Of a stretch of DNA of 64,000 nucleotides, positions 3 to 14,671 are shown in pieces. The DNA is from Cytophagales bacterium (GTDB taxonomy: Bacteria; Bacteroidota; Bacteroidia; Cytophagales; Spirosomataceae), in the NCBI GenBank assembly GCA_013298025.1, contig JAAFJE010000001.1, positions 310,001-374,000 of the forward strand. Direction: 5' to 3'. The notes under the pieces are model-generated. The model was not told the origin of the DNA. It saw nothing but the letters and a program-made list of their open reading frames with translations, and searched no databases. The translations under genes were made by a program, and so were the position numbers. Position 1 is the stretch's first letter. Each line of letters starts with the position of its first letter.

Positions 3-1208
3 TACCGCACGCAAGTTGATTTACAACAATTGGCTTTCAAATGCTCATGTCCTTCTTTCAAATTTCCTTGCAAACACGGTTTAGGCTTGCTACTGGCTTT
101 TGCTTCGCAAGCTACTGCTTTTGAAGCTGATGCAAGCGAACCCGATTGGGTAAAAGAATGGCTCGACAAGCGTCAAGCCAAAGCCGAAAAAGAAGAAAAA
201 AAAGCGGAACAAACACCCGAAAGCACCGAAGCCAACGAGGCAAAAGCCCAAAAAGCCAAGGAAAAACGCCAGCAACAACGCCTCAGCCAAGTAGAAACAG
301 GCATAGACGAGCTACGCTTGTGGCTCAAAGATTTGGTACGAGTAGGGCTGCTCGATTTGCCCAACAAAAATACCCGTTTTTTCGACCAAGTAATTGCCCG
401 CATGGTCGATGCTAAAGCCACAGGATTGGCCGCCAAAATACGTGCCTTGCGTGAATTGAACTATACCAACGATGCTTGGCAAACACAGGCATTGGGCATT
501 ATTGCCGAAACGTTTCTGTTGCTAGAAGCGTACCGCAATCTCGATAAGCAAAACCCTGTTTTTCAACAAAATATCAAAAATCTGATTGGTTGGAGTCAAT
601 CGTCGAAAGATTTATTACAAGACGAGCAGGCCGAAACCATACAAGATACATGGGTTGCCCTAGGGCACGAAGAAGTAGAAACCGAGGGTATTCTTACACA
701 TCGCACGTGGCTTTGGGGCTTGCAGAGCAATCGCACGGCATTGGTTTTGCATTTTGTTACGCCTTATGCCCCACCGCCAGCGTTGATTCCGATAGGTCAT
801 ATTTTTAGGGCTATATTGGCATTTTTCCCAGCCGTTGTTCCACAGCGAGCCATCATCAAGCAAAGCTTGGAAAATGTAAAAACAATCCCACAATTGCCCC
901 AAAGTTGCTCGTCTTGGGAAGAAGCCCTCCAATACCAAAGTAAGGCTACGGCACTATTGCCCTTGGTCAGCGATTTGCCCGTTGTTGTTCAACAAGTGCG
1001 GCTCATGACGCATGAGCAACAACTGTATTTATGCGACCACACGTGGCGGTACTTACGCCTGAGTGCCAGCGTAGTCCCTAAAACCTTGCATAAGATGTTT
1101 GCCCATGCAGGCAATAATCCAGTGCTATTGGCAGGAATCTTGCGACAAGACGGCTTCTTGCCTTTAGGTTATTTTGAATCGAATCGCTATATTTTTCTTG
1201 CCTCATGA
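3..1208 (+). CDS. SWIM zinc finger family protein (5' truncated by window edge)
   Basis: CxC-x(n)-CxH SWIM motif 'FKCSCPSFKFPCKHGLGLLLAF'. The frame stays open to base 3 ('YRTQVDLQQLAFKCSC'), so the ORF-track start at 30 (TTG) is probably not the real start. Confidence 0.85.
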   Translation, partial: YRTQVDLQQLAFKCSCPSFKFPCKHGLGLLLAFASQATAFEADASEPDWVKEWLDKRQAKAEKEEKKAEQTPESTEANEAKAQKAKEKRQQQRLSQVETGIDELRLWLKDLVRVGLLDLPNKNTRFFDQVIARMVDAKATGLAAKIRALRELNYTNDAWQTQALGIIAETFLLLEAYRNLDKQNPVFQQNIKNLIGWSQSSKDLLQDEQAETIQDTWVALGHEEVETEGILTHRTWLWGLQSNRTALVLHFVTPYAPPPALIPIGHIFRAILAFFPAVVPQRAIIKQSLENVKTIPQLPQSCSSWEEALQYQSKATALLPLVSDLPVVVQQVRLMTHEQQLYLCDHTWRYLRLSASVVPKTLHKMFAHAGNNPVLLAGILRQDGFLPLGYFESNRYIFLAS

Positions 1209-2788
1209 TACCACATATCCTTCGCACAGCACTTTTTGGTACTGAAAAACAAAGCCTTGACACCCAAACTTTACCGAATGCCTTGCAAGCCTCGCTTGCC
1301 CGTATTGCTACGCAAGAAGCCGAAACCGTTCTTTTGCAAGCCATTACGTTGAGTCATTTTTATGAAGAATCGGGTAGAAAGCCCCCCATTTTTGAAGGCA
1401 ACCAAAACCCCGAAATCATTGTAGAAGAACAAGCCGAAGCCCCCGAAGTATATCAACAATTGTACCCAAGCATCAAAGAGCTACCACCCTTTGCTCGCTT
1501 TGCTTGTATGTATGCTTGGCTCGATGGTTTTGTACGCCTCGGTGCTATTCCTTCGCCCGACAATACCATTACGCTTTTGAGCGATTTTACAAATTATCCG
1601 CAACACATTCAAGCCAAAATTGCTTTGTGTTTAGGCAAAAAAGGGCGAATGCTCTTGCCTTTTTATAGCGATTTTCAAGCAGAAGAAACCCAACCCGATG
1701 CCCAAATATGGGAAGAAGGAAAGCTAAAAGAACGAAGACTTGTTTTTCAAAAATTACGGCAACAAAATCCAGCAGAAGCCATTGCTTTATTAGAAAAAAC
1801 ATGGCAAACCGAAACCCTTCCTGAAAAAAAAGCTTTTCTCGAAGAAATTGCTAAAACGTTGGTTTCAAGCGATATAGCTTTTTTAGAAAATCTTTGGTTG
1901 ATGTTTGCCTTTAAAAGTCAAGAGAAAAAAGCCCACAAAGAAATCCGTTGGCTGCTCACGGGCTTACTCATGCGTTTTACCACATCAAATGTATATCAGC
2001 AATTGACAAACGAGCTAAAAACGTATGTACAAGCTGAAAAAAGCAAAGGCGTATTGGGCTGGGTGGGTAAAACCGAACTAAGCTTTGCCTTGCCCACCAG
2101 CGACGATGCCTTTTTCAATGCCCAAAGTATGGAAGAGCGTTGGGGCTTGCTTACGCCAAAAGACTACGACAACCTGCCTTCGGCACATACCTATTGGCTG
2201 AGTAATTTGTTGGAGATTATACCCATGAATTTCTGGGAAAATGTTTTACAAAAAAATACCGAAGAAGTGGTAAAATACTGGCAACAAGACCTTTATTGTC
2301 ACAGCATAGACCGAAAGAAATATCCTTTTTTGCAAAAAGCACTCATCCAAAACGCCTTACATTTTGGTAATCAGCACTTGGCATCAGTTTTATGTCAGCA
2401 AAAAGACTGGGTAAATTTTGCGTCGGTCCTACCCTTATTGTCGCAAGCCGAGCGAGAAAAGTTGATACTCCAACACAAAGTACATACCGATGCGTTTATC
2501 CTCAATACTTGTTTTGAAGGTACGCAAGAAATATGGTCGATTCATTTTTCAAAAGAAATCATCAAAGCTTGTCATGAGCTTATATTCAAAAGAAGTGGTT
2601 ATATTTCAGAAGCACTTATAGCCCTGTTATCGGCACACTTACACCCGTCGAGTATTGCATTTTTAGAGAGCCTCGACACATCCATCGGACAGCATCAGCA
2701 TTTGCGGTTGCATTGGCAACAACGCATCGTCGATACATTAGTAATGAATTCAGCAATCAGAGAAAAAATAGCAACCCTCACACAATGA
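1205..2788 (+). CDS. DUF5691 family protein
   Basis: 527 aa ORF with 4-bp ATGA overlap to the SWIM gene; position and character match DUF5691 in SWIM/MoxR/VWA operons. Confidence 0.65.
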   Translation: MIPHILRTALFGTEKQSLDTQTLPNALQASLARIATQEAETVLLQAITLSHFYEESGRKPPIFEGNQNPEIIVEEQAEAPEVYQQLYPSIKELPPFARFACMYAWLDGFVRLGAIPSPDNTITLLSDFTNYPQHIQAKIALCLGKKGRMLLPFYSDFQAEETQPDAQIWEEGKLKERRLVFQKLRQQNPAEAIALLEKTWQTETLPEKKAFLEEIAKTLVSSDIAFLENLWLMFAFKSQEKKAHKEIRWLLTGLLMRFTTSNVYQQLTNELKTYVQAEKSKGVLGWVGKTELSFALPTSDDAFFNAQSMEERWGLLTPKDYDNLPSAHTYWLSNLLEIIPMNFWENVLQKNTEEVVKYWQQDLYCHSIDRKKYPFLQKALIQNALHFGNQHLASVLCQQKDWVNFASVLPLLSQAEREKLILQHKVHTDAFILNTCFEGTQEIWSIHFSKEIIKACHELIFKRSGYISEALIALLSAHLHPSSIAFLESLDTSIGQHQHLRLHWQQRIVDTLVMNSAIREKIATLTQ

Positions 2789-3864
2789 ACCTTTTACGTC
2801 AACACGCCGAAGAGCAATTTGCTCACGAATTAGCCGAATTAAAACGCCATGATTCGGGTCATTTACCACCCAATTGGCAACTTTCGCCTCAATCTGTAGT
2901 GACCTATCTGATGGGAGGAAAATTGCGGAATGGCTTCGAGGTAAGTTCCAAATACATTGGCGACCGCCGTTTGATGGAAATAGCCGTAGCAACCCTTACC
3001 ACCGACCGAGCCTTGTTGCTCTATGGCTTGCCAGGCACAGCCAAGTCGTGGGTATCAGAGCATTTGGCGGCCGCCATTTCAGGCAATTCTACTTTATTGA
3101 TACAAGGTACGGCTGGCACAAGCGAAGAATCCATCCGCTATGGTTGGAATTACGCCCGATTATTGGCAGAAGGCCCTTCGGAAAACGCTTTGGTAGCAAC
3201 GCCTATGATGAAGGCGATGCAAACAGGTAAAATCGCTCGTATAGAAGAACTTACCCGTATTGGTTCTGATGTGCAAGACACGCTGATTACGATTTTATCG
3301 GAAAAAACCTTGCCCATTCCTGAGCTCAATAGCGAGATACAAGCAGTGAAAGGATTCAATGTAATAGCCACGGCAAACAACCGTGATAAAGGTGTAAATG
3401 AACTTTCGGGAGCCTTGAAACGTCGTTTCAATACAGTTATTTTACCCGTTCCCGACTCTATTGCCGAAGAAGTTGCCATTGTTCGTCAGCGTGTAGCAGG
3501 CTTGGCGAGTAGCCTAGAAATTCCAGCTCAAGCCCCCGCTTTACAAGAAATTCAACGCATTGTAAGAATTTTCAGAGAACTGAGAAATGGCGTAACAGAA
3601 GACGGTAAAACCCGACTCAAAACACCTAGCAGTACTTTGAGTACGGCAGAAGCCATTTCGGTTGTCAACAACGGACTCGCCCTTGCCGCCCATTTTGGCG
3701 ATGGTAAAATGAACGCCCACGACCTAGCTTCTGGTATCATCGGTGCAGTAATCAAAGACCCTGTACAAGATAGCGTTGTGTGGAAAGAATACCTAGAAAC
3801 GGTCGTAAAAACACGTGACGACTGGAAAGATATTTATAGAGCCTGTAGAGAAATATCAAGATAA
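2785..3864 (+). CDS. MoxR-type AAA+ ATPase (YehL-like)
   Basis: Walker A 'LLYGLPGTAKS', 'VIATANNRDKGVNELSGALKRRF'. Start placed at ATG 2785, overlapping the previous stop by 4 bp; the ORF-track start at 2713 is inside the upstream gene. Confidence 0.88.
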   Translation: MNLLRQHAEEQFAHELAELKRHDSGHLPPNWQLSPQSVVTYLMGGKLRNGFEVSSKYIGDRRLMEIAVATLTTDRALLLYGLPGTAKSWVSEHLAAAISGNSTLLIQGTAGTSEESIRYGWNYARLLAEGPSENALVATPMMKAMQTGKIARIEELTRIGSDVQDTLITILSEKTLPIPELNSEIQAVKGFNVIATANNRDKGVNELSGALKRRFNTVILPVPDSIAEEVAIVRQRVAGLASSLEIPAQAPALQEIQRIVRIFRELRNGVTEDGKTRLKTPSSTLSTAEAISVVNNGLALAAHFGDGKMNAHDLASGIIGAVIKDPVQDSVVWKEYLETVVKTRDDWKDIYRACREISR

Positions 3865-3939
3865 AGCTTTGATTTACAAAGCGTTTAAATAGACAAATGA
3901 TTTCACATTTAAAGTGTCTTTTTATTATTGACAAAAGTG

Positions 3940-3947
3940 TAAATTTG
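3940..3947 (+). promoter_or_regulatory. Candidate Bacteroidota -7 element TAAATTTG (TAnnTTTG) upstream of the triplicated genes
   Basis: Exact TAnnTTTG match 18 bp before the ATG at 3966, in the ~100 bp gap after the MoxR gene. Confidence 0.4.
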
Positions 3948-3965
3948 TCTAAAGAATGGTGAGTT

Positions 3966-5483
3966 ATGATACAGAAATATCCAGTAGGCATTCAAGATTT
4001 TGGTGAGATACGTACAGGTGGATATTTGTACGTGGACAAAACGGCGTTTGTCCATACGCTCGTAACGCAAGGGAAATATTACTTTCTTTCTCGTCCACGG
4101 AGATTTGGCAAGTCTTTGTTTATTAGTACTTTAGAATATTTGTTTCTGGCTAAAAAAGAACTTTTCAAAGGCTTATTCATCGAAGATAAATGGAATTGGG
4201 AACAAACTTTTCCGATAATCAGGATTTCTTTTAGTAATATCGGACACAAAGAAAAAGGGCTTTATCGGGCTATCGACGAGCAATTGGATAACCTCGCAGA
4301 GAGTTACGAAATTGTTTTGCGAGAACAGATTATCAGTGGAAAGTTTAAAGAACTCATTGAAAAACTTTCAGAAAGTCGGGGCAAAGTGGTAGTGCTAATC
4401 GACGAATACGACCGTCCCATCATTGATTATTTGGGAGAAGACACCGCCAAAGCCATTGAGAATCGGGACATCATGAAGGTATTTTATTCCATTTTGAAAG
4501 ATGCCGATCCTCATTTGAAATTGGTCTTTATTACGGGCGTTTCTAAGTTTTCGAGGGTGAGTATTTTTTCTGATTTGAATAATTTAGATGATATAACCAT
4601 TGACTATCGTTTCGCTGGTTGTTGTGGAATCACCGAACAAGAATTAGAAAATAATTTTGCAGAAGAGCTTCAAATATTTGATAAACAGGGGATTAAAGAA
4701 TGGTACAATGGTTATTCTTGGGATTTGGAAGTGAGTGTTTACAATCCATTTTCCTTGTTAAATTTCTTTACCAAAAAGAAATTTCATAACTACTGGTTCG
4801 ATACGGGCACGCCTACGTTTCTCATCAAACTCGCCAAGCAAATTCATTTATATGATTTCGAGAACAAAGAGACAAGCCTTTCTCATTTGAACTCCTACGA
4901 CCTCGAACGCTTGGAGTTGATACCGCTGATGTTCCAAACGGGTTATCTTACGTTCAAAAGTTACGATGAAGAAGGCGATATTTATACCTTGGGTTTTCCC
5001 AATAAAGAAGTCAAAAAGTCGTACTTAGAAGTGCTGTTAGATGCCGTGCGAGAATACCCCAGCGACCAAGGCATTGTATTTGTCAATGAGTTAAGGAAAA
5101 CACTTTTGGCAGGCAATATCGACAAATTGGAAAGTATTTTGAACTCCCTTTTCAAATCGTTGCCTTATGAACTTTGGCAAAAGGAGAATGAACATTTTTA
5201 TCATGCCATCATTCATTTAGCGTTCACGTTGTTAGGCGTTTATGTACAATCAGAAGTACAAACTTCCGACGGTAGAATGGACGCATTAGTACGGCTGAAG
5301 GAGTATATTTATTGCTTTGAATTTAAGTTGGATGGCTCGGCAGAGGAGGCTCTCAAGCAAATCAAGGACAAAGGTTATCTGCAACCCTTTGCCCAAGAAG
5401 GGAAGAAATTGATAGGCATAGGCATTAATTTTTCTACTGAAAAGAAGAGGGTAGAGGCATTGAAGTGGGAGGAAATAGCATAA
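3966..5483 (+). CDS. AAA-ATPase-like / PD-(D/E)XK nuclease family protein, copy 1
   Basis: 'YPVGIQDFGEIRTGGYLYVDKT', P-loop 'RPRRFGKSL', Walker B 'VVVLIDEYDRPI', C-terminal 'GRMDALVRLKEYIYCFEFKL' nuclease-type motif. Confidence 0.9.
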   Translation: MIQKYPVGIQDFGEIRTGGYLYVDKTAFVHTLVTQGKYYFLSRPRRFGKSLFISTLEYLFLAKKELFKGLFIEDKWNWEQTFPIIRISFSNIGHKEKGLYRAIDEQLDNLAESYEIVLREQIISGKFKELIEKLSESRGKVVVLIDEYDRPIIDYLGEDTAKAIENRDIMKVFYSILKDADPHLKLVFITGVSKFSRVSIFSDLNNLDDITIDYRFAGCCGITEQELENNFAEELQIFDKQGIKEWYNGYSWDLEVSVYNPFSLLNFFTKKKFHNYWFDTGTPTFLIKLAKQIHLYDFENKETSLSHLNSYDLERLELIPLMFQTGYLTFKSYDEEGDIYTLGFPNKEVKKSYLEVLLDAVREYPSDQGIVFVNELRKTLLAGNIDKLESILNSLFKSLPYELWQKENEHFYHAIIHLAFTLLGVYVQSEVQTSDGRMDALVRLKEYIYCFEFKLDGSAEEALKQIKDKGYLQPFAQEGKKLIGIGINFSTEKKRVEALKWEEIA

Positions 5484-5498
5484 AACGTAGCTAAGACA

Positions 5499-7016
5499 AT
5501 GATACAAAAATATCCAGTAGGCATTCAAGATTTCGGTGAGATACGTACAGGTGGATATTTGTACGTGGACAAAACGGCATTTGTCCATACACTCGTGACA
5601 CAAGGGAAATACTACTTTCTCTCTCGTCCACGGAGATTTGGCAAATCATTGTTTATTAGCACCTTAGAATGTTTATTTCTGGCTAAAAAAGAACTTTTCA
5701 AAGGCTTATTCATAGAAGACAAATGGAATTGGGAACAAACTTTTCCGATAATCAGGATTTCTTTTAGCAATATCGGACACAAATCGTTAGGCTTAAATGA
5801 GGCAATAGATACACATTTAGAAGAAATCGCAAAAGAGTATGGCATTGTATTTTCTGCTAAAACCATTGACCAAAAGTTCAAAGAATTAATTGTTTCTCTT
5901 TCGGCAAGTCGGGGCAAAGTGGTAGTGTTAATCGACGAATACGACCGCCCTATCATTGATTATTTGGGCGAAGACACCGCCAAAGCTATTGAGAATCGGG
6001 ATATTATGAAGATATTTTATTCGATTTTGAAAGATGCCGACCCTCATTTGAAATTGGTCTTTATCACAGGCGTTTCTAAGTTTTCGAGGGTGAGTATTTT
6101 TTCTGATTTGAATAATTTAGATGATATAACCATTGACTATCGTTTTGCTGGTTGTTGTGGAATTACTGAACAAGAATTAGAAAATAATTTCGCAGAAGAG
6201 CTTCAAGTGTTTGATAAACAAGGAATTAAAGAATGGTACAATGGTTATTCTTGGGATTTGGAAGTGAGTGTTTACAATCCATTTTCCTTGTTTAATTTTT
6301 TTACCAAAAAGAAATTTAAAAACTATTGGTTCGATACAGGCACGCCTACGTTTCTCATTAAGCTTGCCAAACAAATATATTTGTATGATTTTGAAAACAA
6401 AGAGACAAGCCTTTCGCACCTTAACTCTTACGACCTCGAACGCTTGGAATTGATACCCTTGATGTTCCAAACGGGCTATCTTACTTTCAAAAGTTACGAT
6501 GAAGAAGGTGATATTTACACTTTAGGATTTCCGAATAAAGAAGTCAAAAAATCGTACTTAGAAGTGCTGCTAGATGCCGTGCGAGAATACCCCAGCGACC
6601 AAGGCGTTGTGCTAGTTAATGAGTTAAGAAAGACACTTCTAGCTGGCAATATCGACAAGTTGGAAAGTATTCTAAACTCCCTTTTCAAATCGTTGCCGTA
6701 TGAACTTTGGCAAAAGGAGAATGAACATTTTTACCATGCGATTATTCATTTAGCGTTCACGTTATTAGGTGTTTATGTGCAATCAGAAGTACAGACCTCC
6801 GATGGCAGGATGGATGCGTTGGTGCGGATGAAGGAGTATATTTATTGCTTTGAATTTAAGCTAGACGGCTCGGCAGAGGAGGCACTAGCACAAATCAAGG
6901 ACAAAGGTTATTTGCAACCTTTTGCCCAAGAAGATAGGAAAAAGATAGCTGTGGGGATTAATTTTTCGAGTGAAAAGAAGAAGGTAGAAGCCCTGAAGTG
7001 GGAGGAAATAGCATAA
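5499..7016 (+). CDS. AAA-ATPase-like / PD-(D/E)XK nuclease family protein, copy 2
   Basis: Same 505 aa length as copy 1, very high identity, starts exactly 1533 bp after copy 1. Confidence 0.9.
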   Translation: MIQKYPVGIQDFGEIRTGGYLYVDKTAFVHTLVTQGKYYFLSRPRRFGKSLFISTLECLFLAKKELFKGLFIEDKWNWEQTFPIIRISFSNIGHKSLGLNEAIDTHLEEIAKEYGIVFSAKTIDQKFKELIVSLSASRGKVVVLIDEYDRPIIDYLGEDTAKAIENRDIMKIFYSILKDADPHLKLVFITGVSKFSRVSIFSDLNNLDDITIDYRFAGCCGITEQELENNFAEELQVFDKQGIKEWYNGYSWDLEVSVYNPFSLFNFFTKKKFKNYWFDTGTPTFLIKLAKQIYLYDFENKETSLSHLNSYDLERLELIPLMFQTGYLTFKSYDEEGDIYTLGFPNKEVKKSYLEVLLDAVREYPSDQGVVLVNELRKTLLAGNIDKLESILNSLFKSLPYELWQKENEHFYHAIIHLAFTLLGVYVQSEVQTSDGRMDALVRMKEYIYCFEFKLDGSAEEALAQIKDKGYLQPFAQEDRKKIAVGINFSSEKKKVEALKWEEIA

Positions 7017-7031
7017 AACGTAGCTAAGAAA

Positions 7032-8549
7032 ATGATACAAAAATATCCAGTAGGCATTCAAGATTTCGGTGAGATACGTACAGGTGGATATTTGTACGTG
7101 GACAAAACGGCGTTTGTTCATACACTGGTGACTCAAGGAAAGTATTACTTTCTTTCTCGTCCACGAAGATTTGGCAAGTCTTTGTTTATTAGCACTTTAG
7201 AATGTTTATTTCTGGCTAAAAAAGAACTTTTCAAAGGCTTATATATCGAAGACAAATGGAATTGGGAACAAACTTTTCCCATAATCAGAATCTCTTTTAG
7301 TAATATCGGACATAAATCGTTAGGCTTAAAAGAGGCAATAGACACCCGTTTAGACGAAATTGCAAAAGAGTATGGCATCACGTTTTCTGCTAAAACTATC
7401 GACCAAAAGTTCAAAGAATTAATTGTTTCTCTCTCCGCAAGTCGAGGCAAAGTGGTGGTATTAATCGACGAATACGACCGTCCTATCATTGATTATTTGG
7501 GTGAAGACACAGCCAAAGCTATTGAGAATCGGGATATTATGAAGATATTTTATTCGATTTTGAAAGATGCCGACCCTCATTTGAAATTGGTCTTTATCAC
7601 AGGCGTTTCTAAGTTTTCGAGGGTGAGTATTTTTTCTGATTTGAATAATTTGACCGATATAACGCTTAGTCATCACTTTTCAGCAAGTTGTGGTATTTCA
7701 GAAACTGAATTAGAAACTTATTTTCAAGAAGAATTAAAGATTTACGACAAAGAAAAAATACGAGCGTGGTACAATGGTTACTCGTGGGATTTAGCCGTGC
7801 GTGTATATAATCCTTTCTCTTTGATGCACTTTTTTAGAGAAGGTAAATTTCATAATTACTGGTTCGATACGGGCATGCCTACGTTTCTCATCAAACTCGC
7901 CAAGCAAATTCATTTATATGATTTCGAGAACAAAGAGACAAGCCTTTCGCACCTTAACTCTTACGACCTCGAACGCTTGGAGTTGATACCCTTGATGTTC
8001 CAAACGGGTTATCTTACGTTCAAAAGTTACGATGAAGAGGGCGATATTTATACCTTGGGTTTTCCCAACAAAGAAGTCAAAAAGTCATACTTAGAAGTGC
8101 TGTTAGACGCTGTGCGAGAATACCCCAGCGACCAAGGTGTGGTACTTGTAAACGAGCTACGGAAAACACTCTTGGCAGGTAATATCGACAAATTGGAAAG
8201 TATTCTAAACTCCCTTTTCAAATCGTTGCCGTATGAACTTTGGCAAAAGGAGAATGAACATTTTTACCATGCGATTATTCATTTAGCGTTCACGTTATTA
8301 GGTGTTTATGTGCAATCAGAAGTACAGACCTCCGATGGCAGGATGGATGCGTTGGTGCGGATGAAGGAGTATATTTATTGCTTTGAATTTAAGCTAGACG
8401 GCTCGGCAGAGGAGGCGTTGGCACAAATCAAGGACAAAGGCTATCTGCAACCCTTTGCCCAAGAAGGAAAGAAATTGATAGGCATAGGCATTAATTTTTC
8501 GAGTGAAAAGAAGAAAGTAGAAGCCTTGAAATGGGAATTTATTGGATAG
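7032..8549 (+). CDS. AAA-ATPase-like / PD-(D/E)XK nuclease family protein, copy 3
   Basis: 505 aa, starts exactly 1533 bp after copy 2; divergent central block. Confidence 0.9.
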   Translation: MIQKYPVGIQDFGEIRTGGYLYVDKTAFVHTLVTQGKYYFLSRPRRFGKSLFISTLECLFLAKKELFKGLYIEDKWNWEQTFPIIRISFSNIGHKSLGLKEAIDTRLDEIAKEYGITFSAKTIDQKFKELIVSLSASRGKVVVLIDEYDRPIIDYLGEDTAKAIENRDIMKIFYSILKDADPHLKLVFITGVSKFSRVSIFSDLNNLTDITLSHHFSASCGISETELETYFQEELKIYDKEKIRAWYNGYSWDLAVRVYNPFSLMHFFREGKFHNYWFDTGMPTFLIKLAKQIHLYDFENKETSLSHLNSYDLERLELIPLMFQTGYLTFKSYDEEGDIYTLGFPNKEVKKSYLEVLLDAVREYPSDQGVVLVNELRKTLLAGNIDKLESILNSLFKSLPYELWQKENEHFYHAIIHLAFTLLGVYVQSEVQTSDGRMDALVRMKEYIYCFEFKLDGSAEEALAQIKDKGYLQPFAQEGKKLIGIGINFSSEKKKVEALKWEFIG

Positions 8550-8598
8550 CTACATACATATTGATGCGAGCAATCAGGAAAGTTTTTGACAAAAATTT

Positions 8599-10809
8599 AT
8601 GCCATTACATATTTTAGGTATTCGCCATCATGGCGTGGGGTCGGCTCGATATGTAGCCGAACGCATAGAAGCATTACAACCCGATTTAATTCTGGTAGAA
8701 GGACCTCCTGAAATGACAGAGGCATTACAAGTCATTGGTCACGAGGCACTCAAACCGCCTGTTTCGGTGATGCTATATAATATTGATAATCCACAACAGG
8801 CTGTTTTTTATCCTTTTGCAACGTTTTCTCCAGAATGGGTAGCGGCTTTGTATGCCAATAAAAATCGTATTCCTCTTAGGGCAATAGACTTACCCGTCGC
8901 TATCAGTTTTCAGCAAGCTTTAGCCGAGAACGATACAACATTGTCAGCACCAGTGCGTGACCCGCTCGACTACCTCGCAGAGGTCGATGGCTTTGCTTCT
9001 GGCTCGGCTTTATGGGACCATTATTTTGAAAACCATTTTCAAATTCATACTTCTGCCGAACATTTTGAGGCCGTGATGCTTACGATGAAAACGCTACGCC
9101 AAGCAGCGATTCCTTCGCTTTTGGAAGAAGAAAATACCCTGCGAGAAGCCTATATGCGTGAGTGTATTCGCAAAGCCCAAAATGAACTTTACCAAAATAT
9201 CGTAATAGTATGTGGTGCTTGGCACGCTCCAGCGTTAGTACAAGTTGACACGACTGCCAAAGCCGATGCCAAACTGCTCAAAACTTTACCCAAAACCAAA
9301 ATTAAACCTTTAGCCACGTGGATTGCTTGGACGGCACAACGCTTGGCTTTACAGTCGGGATATGGTGCGGGCATTAGCTCGCCCGGTTGGTATGCTCATC
9401 GTTGGAAGTACCCACAAGATACCGCCATGCTATGGCTTACGCAAGTGGCTGGTTTGTTCAGAAGCAAACAAGCTGATATTTCTACGGCACACGTCATCGA
9501 AGCCTATCGCTTGGCTTGTACCCTAGCCTCGCTCAGAAATCGTCCACAACCAACGCTCAACGAACTCAACGAAGCTGTTATTTCGGTGATGTGCATGGGC
9601 GATGCTGTCCTTTTTCAATTGGTTGAACAAGCCCTTATCATAGGCAACAAACTAGGAAAAGTACCAGAAGATATACCAAAAGTACCTTTGCAAGAAGATT
9701 TTGAAAAGAAAATCAAAAGTCTTCGGCTATCTCTTACAGCCAATGCCAAACAATATGATTTAGATTTACGACAAGAAAATGATTTGAAACGAAGCGTTTT
9801 TTTACATCGTTTGGCTATGCTCTCGGTCACTTGGGGAAGAACAGTAGAGAATCGGAACAAAGGAACTTTCAAGGAATCATGGGTGCTAGAATGGTCGCCT
9901 GCCATGATATTGGAGCTTATCGACAAAGCCTATTATGGCAATACGGTACAGATTGCCGCCCAGCAAGTTATTCTCCAACAACTACAAGCAGAACAAAAAC
10001 TAGGTAATATTACGTCCTTGCTGTCGAGGGTTATTCCAGCAGAATTGTTTGAATGTATAGAAGCTTTGTTGTTGGCTATTCAAAATTTGGCAAGTGTGTC
10101 GGCCGATGTGGTCGATTTGATGGCAGCGTATCCAACTTTAGTGCAGGTGAGTCGGTATGGCAATGTACGAAAAACAGACCTGTCGATGATGCAAAAAATT
10201 GCCGACGGACTTTTCACACGCATTTCCATTGGGCTGGGCAATGCCTGTTATGGCCTCGATGAAGCCAATTCCGAACAAATGTTTCGGCATATCGTAGCCG
10301 TTAATGAAGCCGTTCGTTTAAACCAACAAGAAGAAGCACAAACACTGTGGCTCAATACCTTACAACAATTATTGGCTCGCACGGGTATTCATCCACTCAT
10401 TTTGGGCTGCACAAGCAGGCTCTTATTCGATGCCCAAATCTGGACTACCTCCGAGGCCGAACAACACTTTGCGTATGCCCTTTCTCCTGCCAATCCACCA
10501 AGCGATGTGGCTGCATGGATAGAGGGATTTTTGAAAGGAAGTGGTGCTATTTTAATTTATGACGATACACTTTGGAATTTATTATACGCTTGGGTTGCAT
10601 CGTTGTCGGAACAACATTTCACGGAGTTACTTCCTATTTTACGCAGAACTTTTTCGCAATTTGAATATGCTCAACGCAAACAAATCGGAGAAAAAGCTCG
10701 TAAAGGCTTGGTCGCTATCAGTGCTTCAACTCTTGGAGCATCGCCTGACATAGACGAGCCGAGAGCCGAGATGATTTTGCCGATACTAGAACAATTGATG
10801 GCTGTTTAA
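8599..10809 (+). CDS. DUF5682 family protein (YehM-like)
   Basis: 736 aa; N-terminal 'LHILGIRHHGVGSARYVAERIEALQPDLILVEGPPE' typical of the family. Confidence 0.8.
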   Translation: MPLHILGIRHHGVGSARYVAERIEALQPDLILVEGPPEMTEALQVIGHEALKPPVSVMLYNIDNPQQAVFYPFATFSPEWVAALYANKNRIPLRAIDLPVAISFQQALAENDTTLSAPVRDPLDYLAEVDGFASGSALWDHYFENHFQIHTSAEHFEAVMLTMKTLRQAAIPSLLEEENTLREAYMRECIRKAQNELYQNIVIVCGAWHAPALVQVDTTAKADAKLLKTLPKTKIKPLATWIAWTAQRLALQSGYGAGISSPGWYAHRWKYPQDTAMLWLTQVAGLFRSKQADISTAHVIEAYRLACTLASLRNRPQPTLNELNEAVISVMCMGDAVLFQLVEQALIIGNKLGKVPEDIPKVPLQEDFEKKIKSLRLSLTANAKQYDLDLRQENDLKRSVFLHRLAMLSVTWGRTVENRNKGTFKESWVLEWSPAMILELIDKAYYGNTVQIAAQQVILQQLQAEQKLGNITSLLSRVIPAELFECIEALLLAIQNLASVSADVVDLMAAYPTLVQVSRYGNVRKTDLSMMQKIADGLFTRISIGLGNACYGLDEANSEQMFRHIVAVNEAVRLNQQEEAQTLWLNTLQQLLARTGIHPLILGCTSRLLFDAQIWTTSEAEQHFAYALSPANPPSDVAAWIEGFLKGSGAILIYDDTLWNLLYAWVASLSEQHFTELLPILRRTFSQFEYAQRKQIGEKARKGLVAISASTLGASPDIDEPRAEMILPILEQLMAV

Positions 10810-10848
10810 AACTACATATATCGTTAAAAATGAATACCATATAAACTT

Positions 10849-12027
10849 ATGTCGAACGAACAAGAATTAAAAAAATGGCGATTGATATTGGGGGGTGACG
10901 AAGCCGACGGCACTGGATTTGTACTTTCGGAAGAAGAAAAACAACTCGACCACGCCCTTACGGTTTTGTATGATTTTGATAAAAGACAACGCTTCGACTA
11001 CAAGGCCGAAAAAGGAAAAGGCGGACGAGAAAGTTCGAGTCCTAGCGTAGCACGCTGGCTAGGAGATATTCGTAAATATTTCCCCCAAACGGTTGTGAAT
11101 GTCATGCAACAAGATGCCCTCAAACATCCTGATTTGCAGCGTAAAATGATGCTAGAACCAGAAATTTTAGCCCAAACAACCCCAGATGTGCATTTGGTGG
11201 CAACCCTCATGGAACTTGGTAAACTGATTCCGAGCAAGACCAAAGAAACGGCTCGAAAAGTAGTGAGCCAAGTAGTAGATGAACTCATGCAAAAACTCGA
11301 ACAACGCACCATTGCAGCCCTCAAAGGAGCATTGAATCGTTCGACAAGAAGCCGTAATCCTCGCTACAATGAAATAGATTGGCACACGACTATTCGTAAA
11401 AACCTCAAACATTATCAACCTGATTATAAAACGATTATCCCTGAATTACGCATTGGTTACGGAAGAAAAGCCAAGCGAACGTTGAAAGATGTTGTGCTGT
11501 GTATCGACCAAAGTGGCTCTATGGGCACATCGGTGGTGTATTCGGGTATTTTTGGGGCGGTGATGGCTTCTTTGCCGCAAGTAAAAACCCGTATGGTGGT
11601 GTTCGACACGCAGGTATCTGACCTCACCGAAATGCTACAAGACCCCGTAGATTTGCTGTTTGGTGTACAGTTGGGCGGTGGTACCGACATCAACCTCGCC
11701 TTGAACTATTGTCAGGGCATTATCAACAAGCCCAACGATACTATTTTGGTATTGATTACCGATTTATACGAAGGCGGCAACCTCGAACAAATGAAACGAC
11801 GCACCTTAGAAATTGTAGCCTCTGGCGTACAGATGATTTGTTTGCTTGCCCTCAACGACGAAGGTAGCCCGTCGTATGAACGAAATTTGGCAAAATTCAT
11901 GGCCGAAAATGGCGTACCAGTATTTGCTTGTACCCCCGACGTTTTTCCCGATTTGATGGCGGCGGCTATTCAAAAACAAGATATTACACAATGGGCTGCC
12001 AGCAATGAAATTGTACTCAAAAGTTAA
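10849..12027 (+). CDS. VWA domain-containing protein (YehP-like)
   Basis: MIDAS-type 'VVLCIDQSGSMGTSVVYSGIFGAV' and 'GGGTDINLAL'. Confidence 0.88.
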   Translation: MSNEQELKKWRLILGGDEADGTGFVLSEEEKQLDHALTVLYDFDKRQRFDYKAEKGKGGRESSSPSVARWLGDIRKYFPQTVVNVMQQDALKHPDLQRKMMLEPEILAQTTPDVHLVATLMELGKLIPSKTKETARKVVSQVVDELMQKLEQRTIAALKGALNRSTRSRNPRYNEIDWHTTIRKNLKHYQPDYKTIIPELRIGYGRKAKRTLKDVVLCIDQSGSMGTSVVYSGIFGAVMASLPQVKTRMVVFDTQVSDLTEMLQDPVDLLFGVQLGGGTDINLALNYCQGIINKPNDTILVLITDLYEGGNLEQMKRRTLEIVASGVQMICLLALNDEGSPSYERNLAKFMAENGVPVFACTPDVFPDLMAAAIQKQDITQWAASNEIVLKS

Positions 12028-12236
12028 ATAAAATACCGATGGATAGAAAAACAATCCTAAATTTAATACATCCATCATTTACCATAAATCCCTTAAAAAC
12101 AAACACTTAAAACAGAAAACGCCATTCTTCAACGTACTTTCTTACTTCGTTCTTGACTTTGGGCTAAAAAAGTTGTTTCTTGCTAAAAACACCATTTTTA
12201 GCAAACACAAAACTTTTCTCCCCATACGCATCAACA

Positions 12237-13670
12237 ATGGAAAAATCTATAAAAGTTTCGACAGAAGTAGGCAGACTGAAACGACTACTCATTCATAGTC
12301 CCGACAGCGGTTTAGGTAAAGTAGTGCCTTCTAAGGCCCAAGATTGGCTTTTTGAAGACATCATTCACCTCGACACCATGCGTAAGCATGAGTATGATTA
12401 TTATGTAAAAACCTTGCTGTATTTTCTCGACCCTGCTAAAATCAAAGGTCGATTGGCAGCCATTGATGCCGACGAGGCACGTAATTTTTTCAAGCCAGAA
12501 CATCCCGATTACTTTCATTCCGATAAAGTAATAGAAGTACAAAAATTATTATCTGATGTACTTTCCGACCGCAGTACTTGCACCCGATTGGTAGCAGCCG
12601 TATGTGCCATAGAGCATTGTTCCTTTACAACCCAAACCGAATTACTGCAATATCCTGCCAGCGAATTGGCGAAAATTTTGATTTCGGGCATGACACCCGA
12701 AAAGCAAATGCTCTTCGCTCCTATTCCCAACTTTATTTTTACCAGAGACATTGGTATTACCATCAACGAACATTTGTTGCTCAACAAACCAGCCAAAAAT
12801 GCCCGTTCGAGAGAGGCTTTGCTGATGCAATACATTGTTTTTTACCATGCTATGTTTGCTGAAATTCGGAATAATATTATCGAAATTCCAGAAAATGAAC
12901 ATCATTTTTTGATGCCCGAAGAACAAAAAAATGGCAATGCCGCAACGCTAGAAGGAGGCGACGTAATGATGGTTGCCCCCAATCATTTGCTCATTGGTAT
13001 TTCGGAAAGAACAACGGTGTATGCTGCCAAACAAGTGATTCAGTTGCTTTTTGAAAAAGCAGTTTTAGATAAAGTCACCTTGGTAAAAATTCCGAAAAAG
13101 CGAGATTATATGCACATTGATACCGTTTTTACGCAGGTCAAACGCAATATGTGGGTGCTGTTGGGGTCTTTAGGTAAAAAAGCCAAACAAGAAGATGAAA
13201 CCTACATCAAACTTGGCTTGATTAAACCCAAAGCTTCAGAAGAATTAAAGATTATTCAGTTTAGAAGAAATGAAAAAGAACCCAAAACAATCGCTTATTT
13301 AGAAGATTTGCTCACCGAAATTTCGGTAAAAGACTTGGGCTGTAACCCCGCCGAAGTGCAATTTGTGTATTCGGGCAACAACGAATTTCCGTATGGCGAC
13401 CGTGAACAATGGACTGACTCTTGCAATTTGTTGGCTTTGAAAGAAGGCGTAGTCATTGGCTACGACCGCAACGACAAAACCTTAGAGGCATTCAAAGCAT
13501 TGGGGTTTGAGGCTATCAAAACGGCTGATTTATTGCAAGATTTTGAAAGTGGTAAACGTTCGCCCGATACCATCGAAAATACCTTTATTTTGTTGCCTTC
13601 CGCCGAATTATCAAGGGCCAGGGGTGGCTCACATTGTATGTCGATGCCCTTGTTAAGAAGCGACTTTTAA
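12237..13670 (+). CDS. Arginine deiminase-like (guanidino-group modifying) family protein
   Basis: 'EVGRLKRLLIHSPD', 'TLEGGDVMM', C-terminal Cys motif 'ARGGSHCMSMPL'. Start taken at ATG 12237. Confidence 0.8.
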   Translation: MEKSIKVSTEVGRLKRLLIHSPDSGLGKVVPSKAQDWLFEDIIHLDTMRKHEYDYYVKTLLYFLDPAKIKGRLAAIDADEARNFFKPEHPDYFHSDKVIEVQKLLSDVLSDRSTCTRLVAAVCAIEHCSFTTQTELLQYPASELAKILISGMTPEKQMLFAPIPNFIFTRDIGITINEHLLLNKPAKNARSREALLMQYIVFYHAMFAEIRNNIIEIPENEHHFLMPEEQKNGNAATLEGGDVMMVAPNHLLIGISERTTVYAAKQVIQLLFEKAVLDKVTLVKIPKKRDYMHIDTVFTQVKRNMWVLLGSLGKKAKQEDETYIKLGLIKPKASEELKIIQFRRNEKEPKTIAYLEDLLTEISVKDLGCNPAEVQFVYSGNNEFPYGDREQWTDSCNLLALKEGVVIGYDRNDKTLEAFKALGFEAIKTADLLQDFESGKRSPDTIENTFILLPSAELSRARGGSHCMSMPLLRSDF

Positions 13671-13741
13671 GCCATTAAAAAACTCATAATAAGCATTTTA
13701 CAAAAAACTTATTGTACTTCATTTTCAACAACTATTGTACT

Positions 13742-14671
13742 ATGCGTTCTCAAACAACGGCTCATATACTGATGATTCGCCCTGTTCGTTTTGGATTCAA
13801 CGAGCAAACGGCTACGTCTAATGCTTTTCAAAACATAAGTTTTGGCGAAGCTACCCAAGCAAATGCCCAAACAGAAGCTTTGCAAGAATTTGACCAGATG
13901 ACGCAACACCTCAAAAGATTGGGCGTTGACGTAATTGTGATAGACGATACCCCCGAACCGCATACGCCCGATGCTATTTTTCCAAACAATTGGGTTTCTT
14001 TCCATAACAATGGTACTGTGATTACGTATCCGATGCAGGCCGAAAATCGTCGTTTGGAAAGACGAGAAGACATTATTACTACATTAGAAAAACAATTCTA
14101 TATCAATCGTCGGGTCGATTTGTCTGGGTTTGAAGCCCAAGAAGCATTTTTGGAAGGCACAGGCTCGATGGTGTTGGACAGAAAGCATAAAATTGCCTAT
14201 GCGTGCTTGTCGCCTCGCACGCACGCCTCCGTACTCAAAGCCTTTTCGATACAAATGAACTACGATATTGTATCGTTTACGGCCGTTGATGCCCAACAAC
14301 GACAAATTTACCATACCAATGTATTGATGTGTGTAGGCGATATGTTTGCGGTAATATGCCTAGAAGCGATACCCGACCTCGACGAGCGTATCATGGTACG
14401 CAATACTTTAGAACAAACAGGCAAGCAAATTGTGGAAATCAGTTTGGCACAAATGAACCAATTTGCTGGCAATATGCTAGAAATCAAAAACTTGCAAGGC
14501 GACAAGCTATTAATCATGTCTGATGCCGCTTATTACTCGCTCACGCCTGAGCAAATCGGTACGCTGGGTGATTATTGCAGTATTCATCATTTCGACCTAA
14601 GCATGATTGAGGGCAATGGCGGCGGCTCGGCTCGATGTATGATGGCAGAAATACATTTACCAGTACGCTAA
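13742..14671 (+). CDS. ctlX: Citrulline utilization hydrolase CtlX-like / arginine deiminase-related protein
   Basis: 'HILMIRPVRFGFNEQTA', 'DAIFPNNWVSFH', 'GGGSARCMMAEIHLP'. Confidence 0.78.
   Translation: MRSQTTAHILMIRPVRFGFNEQTATSNAFQNISFGEATQANAQTEALQEFDQMTQHLKRLGVDVIVIDDTPEPHTPDAIFPNNWVSFHNNGTVITYPMQAENRRLERREDIITTLEKQFYINRRVDLSGFEAQEAFLEGTGSMVLDRKHKIAYACLSPRTHASVLKAFSIQMNYDIVSFTAVDAQQRQIYHTNVLMCVGDMFAVICLEAIPDLDERIMVRNTLEQTGKQIVEISLAQMNQFAGNMLEIKNLQGDKLLIMSDAAYYSLTPEQIGTLGDYCSIHHFDLSMIEGNGGGSARCMMAEIHLPVR

Follow-up and report, generated by a model that had tools for sequence, protein, structure and literature searches.

Do three nuclease-ATPase genes lying inside a MoxR-VWA operon belong to that operon as a working part, or do they share its place only? 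The question is raised by positions 3 to 12027 of a 64,000-nucleotide stretch (hereafter the window, meaning the whole stretch that was analyzed) of a Cytophagales bacterium of the Spirosomataceae (GenBank assembly GCA_013298025.1, contig JAAFJE010000001.1, positions 310,001 to 374,000, forward strand), where three paralogs of the DUF1703 family, T1 to T3, stand between the MoxR and DUF5682 genes of a SWIM-DUF5691-MoxR-DUF5682-VWA operon. The placement of these genes, their scatter over the genome, the empty sites in relatives, the mosaic structure of the paralogs and the contrast in selection along them were observed directly, and we consider it probable (about 0.78) that operon and triplet share a place with no functional tie, and that the DUF1703 copies are ATPase-controlled nucleases with shuffled blocks. 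The genes and linkers are as follows; haplotypes give the alleles at three variable blocks, V1, V2 and V3, in that order.

3..1208, + strand: SWIM zinc-finger protein, 3′ part, host operon gene 1 (PF04434, 1.6e-5)
1205..2788, + strand: DUF5691 protein, host operon gene 2 (PF18944, 2.7e-45)
2785..3864, + strand: MoxR-type AAA+ ATPase (YehL-like), host operon gene 3 (AAA_5, PF07728, 7.5e-36)
3966..5483, + strand: T1, DUF1703 protein (AAA-ATPase_like + PDDEXK_9), haplotype A-b-1
5484..5498, + strand: 15-bp T1-T2 linker, AACGTAGCTAAGACA, with a near-identical linker in two other tandem pairs of the genome
5499..7016, + strand: T2, DUF1703 protein, haplotype A-a-1
7017..7031, + strand: 15-bp T2-T3 linker
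7032..8549, + strand: T3, DUF1703 protein, haplotype A-a-2
8599..10809, + strand: DUF5682 protein (YehM-like), host operon gene 4 (PF18934, 1.5e-232)
10849..12027, + strand: VWA/CoxE-like protein (YehP-like), host operon gene 5 (VWA_CoxE, PF05762, 2.1e-46)

Each protein of the triplet has 505 amino acids (aa) and matches both PF09820 (AAA-ATPase_like, 5e-63 or better, 213-215 bits for a cut-off of 26.1) and PF08011 (PDDEXK_9, 70-73 bits for a cut-off of 25.5). This agrees with a first-pass annotation made from the sequence, which had placed three AAA-ATPase-like plus PD-(D/E)XK proteins between MoxR and DUF5682. DUF1703 was defined in 2007 by this combination of an AAA+ with a PD-(D/E)XK domain (PMC1913061). 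Its motifs here are Walker A RPRRFGKS, Walker B DEYD, and nuclease residues D439 and E452-x-K454; across 62 sequences R45-R46-F47-G48-K49-S50, D146-E147-Y148-D149, D439, E452 and K454 were invariant. The ATGA-coupled operon of the same annotation also held, with 4-bp overlaps at 1205-1208 (SWIM/DUF5691) and 2785-2788 (DUF5691/MoxR) and all families recovered in Pfam. The tight coupling is gone around the triplet, the gaps being 101 bp between MoxR and T1, 15 bp at each of the two linkers, 49 bp between T3 and DUF5682, and 39 bp between DUF5682 and VWA. Since all frames are intact, family matches are strong and homologous operons occur in many phyla, neither operon nor triplet is an artefact of open reading frame calling.

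The host operon is old, widespread and normally uninterrupted. Its gene order is common at DUF5682 loci of Bacteroidota, Cyanobacteria, Chloroflexi, Proteobacteria, Verrucomicrobiota and Actinomycetota, and in a survey of 53 loci with MoxR and DUF5682 on one strand within 8 kb the two genes were adjacent at 48, single gaps being approximate because the simple gene caller used puts some start codons of GC-rich genomes in the wrong place. The junction is uninterrupted in the congeners G001, G002 and G004, and in G023. The operon is patchy among relatives (DUF5682 in 9 of 61), and congener G003 has no DUF5682. DUF1703, for its part, is represented in the source genome by ten intact PF09820 genes at five unrelated loci: the triplet, three pairs and one single. 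At the other four loci DUF1703 stands beside MoeA, an unmatched protein, a TonB-dependent receptor and an M23 peptidase; the end of the M23 peptidase gene runs into the start of DUF1703. G001, G002 and G003 carry no DUF1703 copy and G004 carries one, at another place; the junction between MoeA and an epimerase, occupied here by a DUF1703 pair, constitutes a second empty site in G001-G004.

The first-pass annotation had proposed that the triplet is the payload of the operon, with MoxR, VWA and DUF5682 regulating or assembling the nucleases as one conflict or defence system whose slot holds varied effectors, and it had expected other nucleases or effectors at this slot in relatives. The triplet does lie inside the operon on the same strand, MoxR-VWA conflict systems do exist (PMC7159879), and in G031 the slot between MoxR and DUF5682 holds a YhcG/DUF1016 PD-(D/E)XK nuclease (L028:7273-8346). 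No VWA, SWIM or DUF5691 gene stands nearby there. YhcG, however, looks like a passenger too, because YhcG_C matches, about ten and some of them broken, are scattered over many contigs of G031; eight more were found in the source genome. The other survey exceptions, out of five, hold unrelated occupants (DUF4132, a CTP-transferase-like protein, an unmatched 241-aa protein or, at L086, a run of unrelated genes), and DUF1703 fills the gap in none of the five. The idea that the locus is a known anti-phage system was discarded as well, as no PADLOC 2023 model matched any of the eight proteins at E 1e-5. Because the junction is uninterrupted in relatives, congeners included, and the family stands at five unrelated loci, four of them without MoxR or VWA, we regard the payload interpretation as not supported and give it very little credence; an uninterrupted operon combined with a scattered family is also what the annotation itself had associated with chance insertion. 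A fair reading is that two roaming families, DUF1703 and YhcG, each landed once in the MoxR-DUF5682 junction. The survey teaches that nuclease genes in a MoxR-VWA operon are, taken alone, no proof of a defence system. Also, a DUF1703 gene was seen in Bacteroides cellulosilyticus about 9 kb downstream of DUF5682 and outside the operon (L049:21237-22208); no other DUF1703 match was seen in the sequence flanking the surveyed loci.

What, then, are the three genes? The comparison of the ten paralogs revealed a fixed backbone with three blocks, all in the AAA+ module, whose alleles are exchanged in nearly free combination. The blocks, from the paralog alignment and its clusters, lie in the triplet at the following positions.

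Block V1 (aa 13-37), + strand: 4002..4076 in T1, 5535-5609 in T2, 7068-7142 in T3
Block V2 (aa 93-137, AAA+ core between strands 2 and 3), + strand: 4242..4376 in T1, 5775-5909 in T2, 7308-7442 in T3
Block V3 (aa 208-278, after sensor 1, lid region), + strand: 4587..4799 in T1, 6120-6332 in T2, 7653-7865 in T3

There are two allele types of V1 and three of V3; for V2 the eight-copy clade has two, and automatic clustering separates a third one in the C50 pair. The hand-called haplotypes outside the triplet are B-a-3 and B-b-1 (C1b_1, C1b_2), B-b-3 and B-b-2 (C23a_1, C23a_2), A-b-2 (C23b), and B-b-3 and A-b-3 (C50_1, C50_2), which makes nine distinct combinations among the ten copies by hand-called alleles and ten by automatic clustering. 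All four V1-V2 pairings, all six V1-V3 pairings and all six V2-V3 pairings are present, and recombination is therefore required, as the full set is impossible on any recombination-free tree. The pairwise homoplasy index (PHI) of the ten paralogs was 0.334, against 0.602 +/- 0.005 in shuffled data (0/2000). The two C50 copies (95.9% DNA identity) differ chiefly in V1, with one type per copy, and at the 3′ end. T1 and C1b_2 share an identical 300-base stretch over V3 and are about 90% alike elsewhere, as would be expected of a recent conversion tract.

Selection on the two parts of the genes is very different. Amino-acid diversity reached 0.313 in the blocks and 0.025 outside them (0/479 circular shifts). 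Outside the blocks the eight-copy clade showed nonsynonymous divergence (dN) of 0.013 and synonymous divergence (dS) of 0.583, i.e., a dN/dS of about 0.02; since the protein is near invariant while the DNA has diverged, the backbone is under strong purifying selection. Between different alleles, dN was 0.59 at V1 and 0.31 at V3 (two usable pairs), and same-allele dS was about 0.2-0.4. The single copies of G004 and G013, whose backbones are equidistant from all ten paralogs (75-80%), match V1 type A at 69-73% against 42-54% for type B, and V3 type 2 at 74-78% against 51-64% for the other V3 types. Judged from these sequences, the allele classes are old and have persisted across species.

The genome is in 53 contigs, and its copies are 80-96% identical, some sharing exact stretches of about 300 bp, which are circumstances in which chimeric joining of near-identical repeats could have created the triplet or the mosaic during assembly. 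Such chimeras would, however, need two switches at the same positions in many genes; copies sharing an allele mostly differ at several bases, as the same-allele dS indicates, the frames of all copies are intact, and a significant PHI was obtained for G116 and G122 too, whose assemblies are unrelated. We consider an assembly artefact extremely improbable.

In the AlphaFold2 model of T1 (predicted local distance difference test score, pLDDT, 88; predicted template modelling score, pTM, 0.86), V1, V2 and V3 all lie within the AAA+ module. V1 corresponds to helices before strand 1 and Walker A, V2 to helices between strands 2 and 3, and V3 to the lid region after sensor 1, the nuclease domain being placed outside the shuffled blocks. 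The best solved folds for the model were Orc1/Cdc6 AAA+ proteins, with the Avs4 defence ATPase further down at weak scores; a sequence search for relatives of solved structure returned none, and the viral structure library gave no match below 1e-3. In many AAA+ rings, the lid region and the stretch from strand 2 to strand 3 are in contact with neighbouring subunits. As the blocks include both of these regions, according to the modelled secondary structure, they could be subunit interfaces, through which paralogs diversify against mixed oligomers, and their shuffling would then yield insulated complexes and not new targets. Copies that have alleles in common at one or two blocks would nevertheless be left with partial cross-assembly, and we hold this explanation to be conceivable and somewhat unlikely.

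The DUF1703 genes might also be selfish, or merely gene-converting, multigene elements, the mosaicism being a passive by-product and the blocks being free of any selected specificity. Their patchy distribution, their tandem arrays and their location inside the operons of other genes are compatible with this, as are DUF1703 matches on 71 plasmid and 33 phage-collection records and the report of a DUF1703 homolog in MEDEA, a selfish element of Tribolium (PMC6387759). The backbone dN/dS, in contrast, reveals strong selection for function; the diversity is restricted to blocks of the AAA+ module, and old allele classes were kept across species. Nor were a transposase beside the arrays or terminal repeats seen, and the flanks compared upstream and downstream over the five loci had nothing in common beyond the 15-bp tandem linker; on account of the differing flanks and the absence of any transposase seen beside the arrays, an identity of the copies as a transposon or insertion sequence was rejected. 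Purely selfish or passive behaviour is thus a doubtful account of the family, to which we would give perhaps minor weight.

Very large PF09820 expansions were seen in genomes of the same order (35 matches in G116, 35 in G122 and 23 in G161), many of them tandem, the G122 set including a weaker-scoring second subfamily. The close paralogs of G116 (13) and G122 (10), which represent two independent expansions, recombine as well (PHI, 0/1000 each). Diversity in G116 was 0.207 in the same blocks and 0.084 outside (0/479 shifts). With a 75% clustering rule, V2 fell into three discrete types in both genomes and V3 into two in G122, where one four-combination square (V2-V3) was present; G116 had none. 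The repeated use of V2 is the firmest feature common to the expansions, and the full three-block pattern is established for the source genome alone.

Several observations weigh against reading the DUF1703 copies as independent shuffled-block nucleases. In G122 the diversity in and outside the same blocks (0.224 and 0.147) did not differ significantly (52/479), and in G116 discrete clusters were formed in V2 alone. The block borders and the hand-called alleles come from the very ten genes that were analyzed, and the number of distinct combinations was not significantly higher than under free shuffling (P 0.14). The empty-site comparison covered two of the five loci, the neighbours at C1b and C23b being non-syntenic or missing in the congeners. 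Finally, we know of no DUF1703 protein with a known function.

We hypothesize that the host operon encodes a chaperone-type MoxR-VWA ensemble of the YehL/M/P kind, together with DUF5691 and the SWIM protein, which by analogy with other MoxR-VWA pairs may remodel a client protein. The DUF1703 genes would have entered the operon in this lineage, as they did at four other loci, and then multiplied in tandem. Their product would most likely be an ATP-dependent switch controlling the C-terminal nuclease, and V1-V3 cassettes move between paralogs by recombination over the conserved motifs between blocks. The exchanged blocks might set the recognition target or the assembly partners of each copy, and recognition could switch the nuclease on in a defence-like reaction. 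On this basis we suggest, tentatively and as a speculative proposal, that DUF1703 forms a combinatorial recognition repertoire, with a fixed nuclease engine and three exchangeable sensor blocks, in the manner of innate-immune or kin-recognition receptors. A full match to the Bacteroidota-type promoter (TTG-N17-23-TAnnTTTG) was found before the copies of the C23a locus only; T1 is preceded, 26 bases before its start, by TAAATTTG, part of the promoter only and weak as promoter evidence. DUF1703 is a large family, expanded in many bacteria, insect symbionts among them. If its paralogs keep one engine and swap three blocks of the ATPase module, the blocks point to specificity and natural swap variants are ready-made; such building-block paralogs may help to show what DUF1703 proteins recognise.

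Other features of the host operon deserve mention. The full SWIM frame (463 aa) starts 183 bases upstream of the window, which holds its 3′ part only, and relatives carry homologs of the protein, 40-41% identical, in this operon; the DUF5691 gene has one copy in the source genome. The DUF5682 protein carries HHG, E and GAWH motifs, which could suggest membership of the TIKI/TraB/EreA/ChaN superfamily, but its structure model (pLDDT 90) found no solved fold below 1e-3 and no member of that superfamily in the top list. A DUF4132/HEAT protein akin to E. coli YehI occurs within the operons of relatives at two positions, between DUF5682 and VWA in Flectobacillus and between MoxR and DUF5682 in L036 (L025:12229-15180, L026:2050-4986, L042:12274-15198, L036:434-3448, and a 951-aa reading frame after DUF5682 in L037). 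It adjoins the operon in E. coli, is absent from this window, and looks like a genuine optional partner. Downstream of the operon, two adjacent reading frames (12180-14671) look, by eye, like proteins of the arginine deiminase or amidinotransferase type.

The closest known counterpart of the host operon is the E. coli yehI-yehK-yehL-yehM-yehP-yehQ cluster. The window proteins match K-12 YehL (MoxR; 1e-80, 41% identity by blastp), YehM (DUF5682; 9e-37) and YehP (VWA; 4e-71, 33% identity), and their genes keep the YehL-YehM-YehP order on one strand, the insertion notwithstanding. The first-pass annotation had also drawn yehQ into this likeness; YehQ and the window SWIM protein have only the SWIM annotation in common, blastp finding no match between the two at E 0.01. 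The yeh cluster likewise has a SWIM gene nearby, and a DUF4132 gene; it differs from the window in that SWIM comes last, no DUF5691 is seen and there is no DUF1703 insertion. The MoxR-vWA ternary conflict systems (Kaur et al., 2020; PMC7159879) also pair a MoxR ATPase with a VWA protein. Their description makes no mention of DUF5682, SWIM or yeh genes, and the bpMoxR subfamily profile scored 24.5 bits against the window MoxR, below its curated cut-off of 27.

For the triplet, Avs-type STAND proteins offer the same pairing of an ATPase with a PD-(D/E)XK nuclease, and Avs4 was among the weak fold matches. DUF1703 differs in that it shows no sequence match to them, lacks a large sensor repeat domain and has no PADLOC hit. 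Recombination in DUF1703 is not new, since a 2019 study described it within the paralogs of Cardinium and a midge Rickettsia, together with their expansion and horizontal spread (PMC6387759); in the literature library searched, we found no report of fixed-block exchange with near-free combination on a constrained backbone. The paralogs of Cardinium cCpun and of the midge Rickettsia resemble those of the source genome in their lineage-specific expansion and intragenic recombination; their mean identity is 39%, and no fixed exchange positions are described (PMC6387759). The source genome, in contrast, belongs to a free-living relative, its backbone is near invariant and exchange is restricted to a few blocks. 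Compared with the DUF1703 family as first defined (PMC1913061), the two-domain architecture, the unusual Walker A RPRRFGKS, DEYD and the D...ExK nuclease residues are no different here, and what distinguishes the paralogs of this genome is their resolved cassette structure.

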